Shown here piece after piece: positions 1,365 through 37,825 of a stretch of DNA of 37,825 nt. The translations under genes were made by a program, and so were the position numbers. This DNA is from Chitinophagaceae bacterium (lineage in GTDB: Bacteria > Bacteroidota > Bacteroidia > Chitinophagales > Chitinophagaceae). The stretch covers positions 1-37,825 of the forward strand of contig JACMJX010000126.1 in the NCBI GenBank assembly GCA_014380425.1, written 5' to 3'. Position 1 is the stretch's first letter; every line of letters begins with the position of its first letter. A model generated the notes under the pieces. The model was not told where the DNA came from. It worked only from the letters and a program-made list of their open reading frames with translations, and did not search any database.

Positions 1365-2960
1365 TCAATATGCGGCATACCGCTTTCGCCTCCAACGTTC
1401 CACAAGCGCAATGAACAGAAATAATATAATTAGCTGGTAAAAAGATATCCCTATTTCCCCGGTAACCGTTAAAGGCATCCTCTCGATATGAATTATAAAA
1501 TCATTCATCAGCCTGATAAGGAATGTAACGATCCTTCCGGTAAACACAGGTAATATGGGGAAAAAGGACACTACACACAAAACAAGCATTCCCATCAGGA
1601 TAAGGGTCGACAATGGCACCGCCACCATATTGGATACAAGAAACCAGTTCGGGAACTGCTGGAAATAATAAAGACAGAGAGGGATGGTTAAAACCTGGGC
1701 AGAAAGCGTAACGGCTGCCAGCTTCCATATAATATCGAGCAGTTTGTTTCTAACACAGACAAGATTATATATTGGTTTCATGAAGATAACCAGGCTCAAT
1801 ACCGCCATATAAGATAACTGAAATCCTGCATCGAATAGCCATAATGGATGAAAGCAAAGCAGTAAAAAAGCAGAAACGGCCAGGCTGTTGTAAATGGAAC
1901 TTCTTCTATTGATGCTATTGCCCAACACAATAACAGAAAACATAAGCGCCGACCGTAATACGGAAGGCGAACTGCCTGCCAGCAGGCTGAAACTCCACAA
2001 ACCACTTAGCAGAACAAGGGGCCGTAACCAGTTGAAATAGCGTAATAACGAAAAGGGTTTTAAAAGCACCAGCAGAACATAGTAAATAAGCCCGACATGC
2101 AGCCCCGAAATTGCTATTATATGAACGACACCTGTATTGGAGTAAGAGCGCACCAGTTCCTTATCCAGATCATTCTTATATCCGATCAGCAAAGCTTCAG
2201 CCAGCCCGGCTTCTTTCTTTCCTTCAATATAAGTTCGTAAAACCGCCAGCGTCTTTTCACGTGTATATGAAAATAGTCTGCTAAAACCCCGCACCGTTTC
2301 ACTATCCAGAACCAGGTATTGTCCGTTTTGCAGGTAAGCCTGGTGATATGTATTCATCAGGGCACAATACTTACGGTAGCTGAAGCCGGTGCTGTTTGGA
2401 AAATCGGCAATGGGTCTAAGCTTCGTTGCGATGCAAAGAAGGTTGCCAGCCCTTACAGGTAAAGAGCTGTCTTTTTCTATGGATAATGTGATTGTGCCAG
2501 ACGCGGCTTTCACGCTATCATTCAGTATTATCCCTTCTATATTCGTCGTAACCCTGTAAGAAACTGTTTTTTCCAGCGGGGGATCCCTCACCCGCACGAG
2601 TAATACAGCATTCTTTGCGTTTTTATATCCTATCCAGTTTTTATCATTCCTGATATCCCCTAAAAAAACAAGCAGGCAGGCCAGAAGGAAGAACAGAACA
2701 TAAATAGAAGCTGCCGACATACAATACCAGTAAAAGCGCCGGTACAAATGGCTACCATTCACCACTACAAATAATGCCAGGGCAGCTAAAATACTATACA
2801 GAATTATCCGGATAGGAAAAGGCCTATTCCATTGGCAAGTAATTCCGGTAGCAAATGGAATTAAATAACGGATAAAGGGAGCTTCTTTCCACAAAGGAGC
2901 CGGTTTGAATTTCATCCCTCTAAAATAAGATAGGGATCTGCTTCGAAAGTGGTGAAACAA
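1365..2960 (-). CDS. comEC: ComEC/Rec2-family competence membrane protein; start may be 2915 (MKFKPAPLW)
   Basis: 531-aa polytopic protein with DUF4131-like N-terminus and competence motif 'GVVHIIAISGLHVGLIYYVLL'; no C-terminal metallo-beta-lactamase domain visible. Confidence 0.88.
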   Translation of the reverse strand: MFHHFRSRSLSYFRGMKFKPAPLWKEAPFIRYLIPFATGITCQWNRPFPIRIILYSILAALALFVVVNGSHLYRRFYWYCMSAASIYVLFFLLACLLVFLGDIRNDKNWIGYKNAKNAVLLVRVRDPPLEKTVSYRVTTNIEGIILNDSVKAASGTITLSIEKDSSLPVRAGNLLCIATKLRPIADFPNSTGFSYRKYCALMNTYHQAYLQNGQYLVLDSETVRGFSRLFSYTREKTLAVLRTYIEGKKEAGLAEALLIGYKNDLDKELVRSYSNTGVVHIIAISGLHVGLIYYVLLVLLKPFSLLRYFNWLRPLVLLSGLWSFSLLAGSSPSVLRSALMFSVIVLGNSINRRSSIYNSLAVSAFLLLCFHPLWLFDAGFQLSYMAVLSLVIFMKPIYNLVCVRNKLLDIIWKLAAVTLSAQVLTIPLCLYYFQQFPNWFLVSNMVAVPLSTLILMGMLVLCVVSFFPILPVFTGRIVTFLIRLMNDFIIHIERMPLTVTGEIGISFYQLIILFLFIALVERWRRKRYAAY

Positions 2961-3061
2961 CCCTTTTTCTGCCCCGTAGTCAACTCTTCATAGGGCGCAA
3001 TAATGGCAGTTCATTTAATAGGTTCAATAGACAGTGATCTTATAACTAGATTTCGTTGATA

Positions 3062-3167
3062 CTAAGTAAATACTAGGCAGATCCTAGGTAAATACTAGGT
3101 AGATTCTAGCTTGTTGTACCTAGAATGTACCTAGTATCTACCTAGTATCTACCTAGGATGTACCTAG
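3062..3167. repeat. Ten CTAG-type boxes (first is CTAA) at 11-bp period in two opposed arrays forming a ~48-bp imperfect inverted repeat around a 10-nt spacer
   Basis: Box starts 3062(ctaa), 3073, 3084, 3095, 3106 then 3120, 3131, 3142, 3153, 3164. Arms 3062-3109 and 3120-3167 are complementary at 41/48 positions by hand count; spacer cttgttgtac (3110-3119). Confidence 0.95.
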
Positions 3168-3363
3168 GATGGGCGAAAAATAGCTATAAGATACATGTAG
3201 ATGTAGCGGTGAAGAAAGGTCGATAAAGCTTGAAAAATCAGCATAATCGTAGGATCCTTGAGCCGGGGAGGGGTTATCAGGGTTCTTAATTTCTAAAGAA
3301 ATAGTGCCAGAATGGCATTTTTAATAATTACTACAGAACGGCTCTAAATAGCAATTTGTCCAG

Positions 3364-3463
3364 TGCTTCAAGATGATACGCGGGGGTGAAGGCGACTGCT
3401 TCAAGATGACACACGTGGTGTGAAGGCGCCTGCTTCAGGATGACGCGCGGGGGTGAATGACTC
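3364..3463. repeat. Three-copy imperfect tandem repeat, 33-34 bp unit
   Basis: Copies begin at 3364 (tgcttcaagatgatacgcgggggtgaaggcgac), 3397 (tgcttcaagatgacacacgtggtgtgaaggcgcc) and 3431 (tgcttcaggatgacgcgcgggggtgaatgac). Confidence 0.9.
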
Positions 3464-3525: not shown

Positions 3526-6351
3526 CTATTTACTCAGGTACATACTTCTGTCTTTATAAAGCTGCCTGAAATAGGGATCCCGAAGATCCTTGATAAACCG
3601 GATCGCTTCACCGGTACTTTTCATTTCAGGGCCAAGCTCTTTATTTACACCCGGAAACTTATTGAAGCTGAATACGGGTTCCTTGATGGCAAAGCCCTTT
3701 AGCTTTTTTTCGTACTTGAAGTCGGTAAGCTTGTGCCCACCTATCATTATCTTGGTAGCGATATTCAGGTAGGGAATCTGGTAAGCTTTGGCGATAAAAG
3801 GCGTTGTGCGCGATGCCCTTGGATTGGCCTCGATCACATACACTTTACCGTCTTTTATGGCGAACTGAATATTGATCAGCCCTTTAATATTGAGCGCTCT
3901 TGCTATCTTTTCCGCATAATGTTCCATAGTGGTGACTATAAGCGGGGTCAGGTTAAAAGCTGGAAGCACGGCGTTACTGTCACCGCTATGGATGCCAGCG
4001 GGCTCGATATGCTCCATAACGCCCATAACATGGAACGTATCTCCGTCGAAGATGGCATCGATCTCCGCTTCCTGGCAGCGGTCGAGGAAATGATCAATAA
4101 GTATCTTATTGCCAGGAAGATGTTTCAACAGGCTGACGACTGCTTTCTCTACATCTTCATCATTGATAACGATCCGCATTCTTTGTCCGCCAAGTACATA
4201 GCTGGGCCGCACCAGCACAGGATAAAGCACCCTGTTGGCTACTTCAATAGCTTCATCTACGGAATGAGCAGTGCCATAATTCGGGTAAGGGATATTGAGT
4301 TCTTTCAGCATATCGCTGAACCTTCCGCGGTCTTCCGCAATATCCATGCTATCGAATGACGTACCTATTATCTTGATTCCCTTGTTGTGAAGGCGTTCTG
4401 CAAGCTTTAATGCTGTTTGGCCACCTAATTGAACAATTACTCCCTCCGGCTTTTCATGTTCCACTATTTCCCAAAGATGTTCCCAGTAAACGGGCTCGAA
4501 ATACAGCTTGTCGGCAATATCGAAATCGGTGGAAACAGTCTCGGGGTTACAGTTAACCATAATGGCTTCATAACCTGCTTCCTTGATGGCTAGTAATCCG
4601 TGGACGCAGCAATAATCGAACTCGATGCCTTGCCCTATCCTGTTGGGGCCCGATCCGAGTACGATTATCTTTTTTCTGTCTGATACCTTGCTTTCACTGA
4701 CTCCGCTGCTCTCGAAAGTGGAATAGAAGTACGGTGTTTTGGCTTCAAACTCTGCTGCGCAAGTATCCACCATCTTGAACACTCTTTTAATACCGGCAGC
4801 CTTTCTTTTCTCGTAAAGAGAATCTTCCGTGCCATCGTTCATGATGCGGCAGATCTGTTCATCGCTAAAGCCCATTCGCTTGGCGTCTTGTAAAAGATCC
4901 ATAGGAAGCGATTCCAGCTTGTACTTTGAAAGCTCTTTTTCCATAGTGCAGATCTTCTGGATCTCGTAAAGGAACCAGCGGTCGATGCCATTGGTTGCCT
5001 TCGATATGGTGCCAACGGAGATGCCGGCCATCAGAGCATCTTTAATGCGGAAAATCCTGTCCCATTTAGGTATTTTGATATACTCCAGCAGTTCTTCGGC
5101 GTGCATAAGGCTTTTGCCATAGTAGCCGAGGCCCACGGCATTGTTTTCAAGGCTCTGGCAGGCTTTCTGAACCGCTTCGGTAAAGCTGCGGCCTATAGCC
5201 ATTACTTCGCCGACGCTCTTCATCTGCAGGCCAAGTGTATCATCTGCACCTTTAAACTTGTCGAAGTTCCAGCGGGGAATTTTGACTATAACATAGTCTA
5301 GTGCAGGTTCAAAATAAGCCGATGTCGTTTTTGTGATCTGGTTTTTCAGTTCATCCAGGAAATAGCCGATAGCAAGCTTGGCGGCTATTTTGGCTATGGG
5401 ATAACCGGTGGCTTTGGAGGCGAGCGCGGAAGAGCGGCTCACCCGGGGATTGATTTCGATGGCAATGATTTCTTCCGTATCGGGGTTGAGCGCGAATTGC
5501 ACATTGCATCCGCCGGCAAAGTTGCCAAGGTCTCGCATCATCCTGATGGCTGTATTCCGCATCAATTGATAGGCTGTATCACTTAGCGTCATGGCGGGGG
5601 CAACGGTGATCGAATCACCGGTATGCACACCCATCGGGTCAAAGTTTTCTACAGCGCAAATGATCACCACGTTATCATTGGAATCTCTTAATAATTCGAG
5701 TTCAAATTCTTTCCAACCAAGTACGGCTTTTTCCACAAGTACTTCATGAATAGGCGATGCCTGAAGTCCACGGTTCAACGCTTCATCGAGATCTTCTTTT
5801 CCATGCACGAATCCGCCACCTGTGCCGCCGAGCGTGAAAGAGGGTCGTATTACAAGCGGGAAGCCGATTTCCTGTGCAAACTCTTTTCCTTCCAGGTAGG
5901 AATTAGCTGTTTTGGCCGTAGCCACCGGCACTCCCATCTGAATCATCCACTGGCGGAACTTTTCCCTGTCTTCGGCCTTATCGATGGCTTTTATGTCAAC
6001 TCCTATAAGACGTACATTGTATTTCTCCCAGATACCCAGGTCTTCTGCTTCTTTAGCCAGGTTGAGGGCCGTTTGGCCGCCCATAGTGGGTAATACGGCG
6101 TCTATCTGATTTTCTTCCAGTATTTGTTCGATGCTTTCTGCCGTAAGTGGCAGCAGGTAAACCTTATCGGCCATCATAGGGTCCGTCATGATCGTAGCCG
6201 GATTGCTATTAATCAGGTACACTTTTATCCCTTCTTCTCTCAGGCTTCTTGCGGCCTGCGTGCCGGCATAGTCGAATTCGCAGGCTTGCCCGATGATGAT
6301 AGGTCCCGAACCGATAATCAAAACTGATTTTATAGACTGGTCTCTTGGCAT
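3526..6351 (-). CDS. carB: Carbamoyl-phosphate synthase large subunit (start trimmed to [17 protein letters not shown])
   Basis: Two ATP-grasp halves, each with an N-terminal 'GSGPxxIGQ' motif; ends shortly after '[37 protein letters not shown]'. Confidence 0.96.
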
Positions 6352-6434
6352 TTTGTTATTATAGATGATCGAAAAAACACAAATTGCGCAAAAGTAAGGG
6401 AGTGGAAGGTATTTACAAAGAAAGTAAAAATATA

Positions 6435-6479
6435 AAGGCACCGGTTACAGATGTTGTTTCAATCTGTAGCCGGTGCCTT
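6435..6479 (-). terminator. Strong hairpin terminator between the 70-aa ORF and carB
   Basis: AAGGCACCGGTTACAGAT (6435-6452) pairs with ATCTGTAGCCGGTGCCTT (6462-6479), one G-T position in 18; on the minus strand followed by TATATTTTTACTTT. Confidence 0.8.
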
Positions 6480-37262: not shown

Positions 37263-37825
37263 TTAAAGTACGGATAGGGTATTGCGGATCTTATTGAGTT
37301 TATCTTCCCCTTTACCTATCTTAGATCTGAGCGATCGGATGTCTTCTTCGATATTCTTCTGTTTATTGACAGATCTGCGGGCTTTCTCTGCACTATCTTT
37401 TGCATCATCAGCACTTCTGCTTGCTCTTTTAGCTAATTTACGATCCTGGGAATCATTAGCAAGACTCGATGCCTTACGGCTGTTTTCGTCTGCGGCCTGC
37501 TGAGCGTTCTCGGCGTCTTTCTTAACCGCAACCTGTTGCTCCGCTAAAAGTAATTCCAGTTGCGCTAATTGTTTTTTTTGCTTTACGATTTTCTCACTTA
37601 GTTCTATAGAATCTTTTATTTGCCTTACTACTTTTAGAGAATCTGATTTCTGTCTCTTGGCTGCTTTAGAAGAATCAGCTGCCTGCTTCTTGATAAGCTT
37701 CAAAGAATCTTCCGAAAACTGAGTAAGCTTCAAAGAATCTTCCGAAAACTGAGTAAGCTTCAAAGAATCTTCCGCTAATTGCGCATTGGCGGTAAAAGCA
37801 AACAAAAAGAATGTAAACAGGGCTA
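37263..37825 (-). CDS. Exported coiled-coil protein with decapeptide repeats; 5' end outside window
   Basis: Reverse frame stays open to 37825 with hydrophobic '..ALFTFFLFAFTANAQ' leader, so the called TTG at 37805 is probably inside the signal peptide; Ala/Lys/Glu-rich coiled coil follows. Confidence 0.75.
   Translation of the reverse strand, partial: ALFTFFLFAFTANAQLAEDSLKLTQFSEDSLKLTQFSEDSLKLIKKQAADSSKAAKRQKSDSLKVVRQIKDSIELSEKIVKQKKQLAQLELLLAEQQVAVKKDAENAQQAADENSRKASSLANDSQDRKLAKRASRSADDAKDSAEKARRSVNKQKNIEEDIRSLRSKIGKGEDKLNKIRNTLSVL
37695..37784. repeat. 30-bp tandem repeat, three copies, inside the coiled-coil CDS
   Basis: aagcttcaaagaatcttccgaaaactgagt at 37695, 37725, 37755 (third diverges at its end); encodes AEDSLKLTQF/SEDSLKLTQF/SEDSLKLIKK. 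Confidence 0.92.

Follow-up and report, generated by a model that had tools for sequence, protein, structure and literature searches.

The array of 11-bp units at positions 3062-3167 of the window (the whole 37,825-nucleotide stretch of DNA that was analyzed) belongs, in our reading, to a dispersed family of non-coding, imperfectly palindromic intergenic repeats of MITE- or REP-like character, in which the units are laid out in two inverted halves and kept in phase through a putative, cooperatively binding DNA-binding protein. We put the probability of this reading at about 60%. Its observed basis consists of the dispersal of the element, its intergenic sites, the relatedness of its copies as whole elements, a near-absence of insertions and deletions, an asymmetry between the two arms, and the lack of covariation between them. 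Mobility of the element and its binding by a protein are what we infer.

Structure of the array and its setting

The array lies in a 565-bp spacer between two genes that the first-pass annotation had named carB and comEC, and Pfam confirmed both gene identities (Table 1). The architecture described there also held upon recounting: nine CTAG boxes and one CTAA box, five on each side of a 10-nt center, follow each other at intervals of exactly 11 bp, and Tandem Repeats Finder, run on the window, reported a period of 11 for both arms. A recount reproduced the complementarity between the arms that had been obtained by hand (41 of 48 positions); extension of the arms gave 58 of 72 positions, and the inverted repeat of the window copy reaches outward to ~3037-3192. 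CTAG is scarce in the window, with 30 observed versus 120 expected from dinucleotide shuffles, and 9 of these 30 sit inside the 106 bp of the array. The array was rightly taken to be non-coding, because stops interrupt all six frames. Compared with the other copies described below, the window copy has different flanks and represents a minor subtype, resembling loci L032 and L029.

Table 1. Positions of the array, its parts and the adjoining genes in the window.
Feature	Positions	Strand	Description
comEC-like competence protein gene	1365..2960	-	Downstream in transcription direction; Pfam
Outer left inverted flank	3037..3054	+	ATCTTATAACTAGATTTC; 15/18 complementary to 3175-3192
Array	3062..3167		CTAAGTAAATA CTAGGCAGATC CTAGGTAAATA CTAGGTAGATT CTAG / CTTGTTGTAC / CTAGAATGTAC CTAGTATCTAC CTAGTATCTAC CTAGGATGTAC CTAG
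Left arm	3062..3109	+	CTAA followed by four CTAG boxes; 11-mer CTAGGTASATN; varies more among copies than the right arm
Center, 10 nt	3110..3119	+	CTTGTTGTAC in the window copy; commonest form in other copies GTACATGTGC
Right arm	3120..3171	+	Five CTAG boxes and GATG; 11-mer CTAGNATSTAC; better conserved than the left arm
Outer right inverted flank	3175..3192	+	Most other copies have a conserved tail of another kind here, GATGATGAnTATTTAAACGAACGAATATGACG
carB, carbamoyl-phosphate synthase large chain	3526..6441	-	Upstream in transcription direction; Pfam

The locus itself is incidental to the array, because carB adjoins comEC in 0 of 11 relatives when 1.5-kb flanks are checked; a comparison of syntenic spacers, which the first-pass annotation had proposed, was thus uninformative. 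Three further observations concern other parts of the window. The comEC-like frame encodes ~530 aa, compared to an open frame of ~700 aa in most relatives, and is possibly shortened at its C terminus. The spacer that contains the array also holds, at 3364-3457, 2.8 repeats of a 34-bp unit (TGCTTCAAGATGACACGCGGGGGTGAAGGCGAC), which is single-copy in the genome by BLAST. Elsewhere in the window, at 37694-37774, a 30-bp unit is repeated 2.7 times without mismatch.

A family of whole elements in the genome

In the draft genome to which the window belongs (G000; 3.36 Mb in 420 contigs, 84% complete), BLAST placed the two-armed element at 17 sites and found one more, partial copy that is truncated where its contig ends. 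Runs of three CTAG boxes spaced by 11 bp occurred 56 times in this genome, versus a single occurrence of a reversed control pattern. The copies are intergenic and lie in spacers that, from open reading frames only, are co-directional, convergent or occasionally divergent. In a consensus of 16 copies, five units of the left 11-mer (Table 1) stand opposed to five of the right one across a center that is mostly GTACATGTGC. On the right side, a conserved tail, roughly GATGATGAnTATTTAAACGAACGAATATGACG, reaches ~90 bp beyond the point at which the right arm begins, and the left flank is weakly conserved. The core of the element spans ~110 bp, and the flanks bring it to as much as ~180 bp. Two of the copies, L023 (G000:C3:98) and L027 (G000:C388:261), have similar flanks on both sides, which suggests that a larger segment was duplicated or that the draft contains strain variants.

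The copies are related not only in their units but also in the order of these units. Units with the same index were more alike across copies than in shuffled orders, with 0 of 500 shuffles reaching the observed value for either arm, both in G000 and in G133, another genome of the family, in which a related element occurs. The likeness of same-index units shows that the copies descend from whole elements; judged from the sequences, it is whole elements, rather than local arrays, that appear to have been copied around the genome. Of the proposals made in the first-pass annotation, that of a short non-autonomous repeat element is supported, by 17 two-armed intergenic copies and a partial one that are related as whole elements.

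Phase, arm asymmetry and pairing among copies

Sixteen G000 copies of 120 bp each (1,920 bp) together contained 253 substitutions from the consensus, or ~13%, and at most two gaps, and the inner arms of the G133 elements had no gaps under strict scoring. Inside the copies, 124 of 126 CTAG were in phase. Spacing on the helix thus seems to matter, because the spacing of the units is almost perfectly kept while their letters drift. As a sign of constraint the low indel count is suggestive, and part of it may be due to a spread that was recent or to indels being rare in general. The first-pass annotation had staked its reading on a conserved 11-bp phase and an uncommon CTAG, and both stood: the phase is kept among the copies, and CTAG is depleted in the window. 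The two arms fared differently, with CTAG retained in 75 of 80 right boxes and in 41 of 80 left boxes over the 16 copies.

These data bear on whether the element could be a neutral by-product of replication. Slippage and template switching readily yield tandem and inverted repeats, and they could have produced the 11-bp tandem units and the inverted halves with no function attached. Arrays with unrelated units do recur in other Bacteroidota, as this easy origin would allow. However, the unit order that the copies have in common points to their spread as elements rather than to local origin, and indels are nearly absent despite the ~13% substitutions. We therefore regard an origin as a functionless by-product as distinctly improbable.

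Alternatively, the array might work by forming a long hairpin in RNA (in mRNA stability, antisense action or termination) or a DNA cruciform, with pairing of the arms under selection. Its predicted folding is indeed very strong and far exceeds that of shuffles on both strands (z = -7.9 and -12.3 for RNA, and z = -7.5 for DNA), the window copy pairs beyond its boxes, and the 11-bp period corresponds to about one turn of A-form RNA. Pairing between the arms, however, proved not to be specific to the individual copy: in G000 it amounted to 679 within copies and 674.9 between copies (p = 0.25), and in G133 it was lower within copies (557) than between copies (591 ± 9). The compensatory changes between arms that the earlier annotation had hoped for are thus absent, with no covariation in either genome. 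In the outer flanks, pairing was not specific to the individual copy when all copies were taken together, although the window copy ranked first; a few further copies also have paired flanks, but this is not general. CTAG, moreover, is kept in one arm and not in the other, no T-run follows the hairpin in the window, and the window gave no Rfam match. Hence, of the functional hairpin RNA suggested at first, the ability of the arms to pair stands, and we consider a pairing-based function unlikely; hairpin selection as the main driver was rejected after arm shuffling between copies, unit shifts and the outer-flank test. We also rejected active avoidance of arm pairing in G133, where the occurrence of the core in both orientations would account for the deficit without selection.

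Unit order, scarcity of indels, lack of covariation and asymmetry of the arms all fit a dispersed palindrome of phased DNA boxes, with one side more constrained, better than they fit a selected hairpin. In the dispersed-repeat reading that we prefer, whole elements would have spread around G000, moved in trans by a transposase. With the strict 11-bp phase, all units come to lie on the same face of the helix, and this phase may have been maintained because a DNA-binding protein, from the host or the transposase itself, reads the units cooperatively. The phased protein-binding array that had been proposed at the outset thus appears plausible, as far as sequence comparison goes, from the spacing kept despite drift and the asymmetry in CTAG; its suggested connection to TrpR found no counterpart, as nothing ties the array to that repressor.

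Related arrays, known elements and wider occurrence

Beyond its own genome, the element had no BLAST match in 60 relatives, and the two-unit pattern occurred in 2 of 399 genomes of the family, namely G000 and G133. In G133, a related element with related 11-mers is found at ~24 places. Each of its arms has five inner units, of type CTAGGTTCATC / CTTCGTTCATC, and, farther out, three to four units of type CATCCTTGCTG, adding up to arms of ~98 bp with a period of 11 throughout, and one end of the elements is often GGTAGGATATTACC. CTAG varies to CTTCG or CTACG in this cognate family, which blurs any motif that a protein would recognize and which we count against the cooperative binding reading.

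A site that organizes the chromosome, that is, an array for a nucleoid or segregation protein which the host keeps and which is no selfish repeat, would agree with ~20 intergenic copies per genome, a strict helical phase and the conservation of one arm. But the absence of matches in the 60 relatives and the restriction to 2 of 399 family genomes weigh against such a role, because a core function of the chromosome would not be so patchily distributed, and we hold this role to be very unlikely.

Similar arrays exist in Chitinophaga sedimenti (L079, L175) and in another Chitinophaga (L095, L164), and some units of L164 are identical in type to those of the window copy. These likenesses suggest that the organism carrying the window is a member of Chitinophagaceae. 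G133 and the C. sedimenti loci L079 and L175 had no 31-mers in common in the stretches compared, so G133 was not equated with C. sedimenti. When 85,462 genomes were scanned for four CTAG boxes spaced by 11 bp, at least 117 loci emerged. Among the CTAG-array loci listed, an inverted partner arm accompanied 17 of 58 in Bacteroidota versus 2 of 59 in others (Fisher p = 1.2e-4, a rough value, since the cut-off for a partner arm, a score of ≥21/30, was chosen after seeing the scores and one genome contributes several loci). The units of the listed arrays are wholly different between lineages, and a few unselected arrays of the same design are free of CTAG, for example, GCCATACTGAT in L080. The 11-bp inverted array design is recurrent yet sporadic in Bacteroidota. 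The idea of a phylum-wide feature was dropped, given a four-box CTAG array in 1 of 247 other Bacteroidota and no 11-bp array in 1.26 Mb of unselected Bacteroidota DNA. It is conceivable, though we think it improbable, that 11-bp inverted arrays form a recurrent Bacteroidota element type with unrelated units, which a widespread DNA-binding or transposition system would read once per helical turn, largely regardless of unit sequence.

Two side observations came from the same loci. A second dispersed motif, like GTCCTGAAATAGGTTTACACC, adjoins arrays of several Chitinophaga-group genomes, at L079, L121 and L175 and at the G133 loci L244 and L250, and may be the end of an insertion sequence. Among unselected arrays of the listed loci, tandem arrays with period 7 numbered 34 in Bacteroidota versus 1 in other phyla.

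Of the elements described previously, the nearest case is BrickBuilt, a MITE of Porphyromonas gingivalis that has 19 intergenic copies per genome, with a 23-nt unit repeated 1 to 22.8 times in one direction, ends matching IS5-family inverted repeats, leader and tail flanks, and predicted stem-loops (PMC4596501). Both are dispersed intergenic elements of Bacteroidota that are restricted to certain species, contain a tandem repeat between flanks and are predicted to form stem-loops, whereas the element reported here has an 11-bp unit, two opposed halves and a fixed number of units, and no IS link was found for it. REPs are likewise palindromes dispersed outside genes, and they abound in some genomes while others lack them; they measure 20 to 40 bp and are tagged at one end by GTAG or CGTC, the GTAG types being linked to RAYT transposases (PMC3733652), in contrast to the 110 to 180 bp of the present element, which is without an end tag. 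Mobilization by a RAYT, or a REPtron, was set aside as a candidate, as PF01797 (Y1_Tnp) had no match in G000 (at 84% completeness) and one weak match in G133. The element also resembles prokaryotic MITEs, which are short, non-coding and multi-copy and have inverted repeats (PMC10969869): it was found in 17 copies and a partial one, at 110 to 180 bp, with stops in six frames. By eye, we saw no clear target-site duplication or empty site in the copies inspected, whose element ends are not fixed, and we noticed no solitary arms flanking a gene among the BLAST matches; neither an autonomous partner nor a parental insertion sequence came to light, the transposase search having covered Y1_Tnp. A plasmid or viral origin was rejected for want of a match. 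A literature search, which covered few subscription journals, turned up no description of 11-bp arrays of this kind.

If the phase is under selection, the element would provide a named repeat family for genomes of the Chitinophaga group, and it may affect their assembly, because several G000 contigs start or stop close to a copy. On that condition, these elements would be natural arrays that offer a protein one site at each turn of the helix, available in dozens of variants for comparison, and they would allow a direct test of the limits that helical phasing sets on a mobile or regulatory DNA element.
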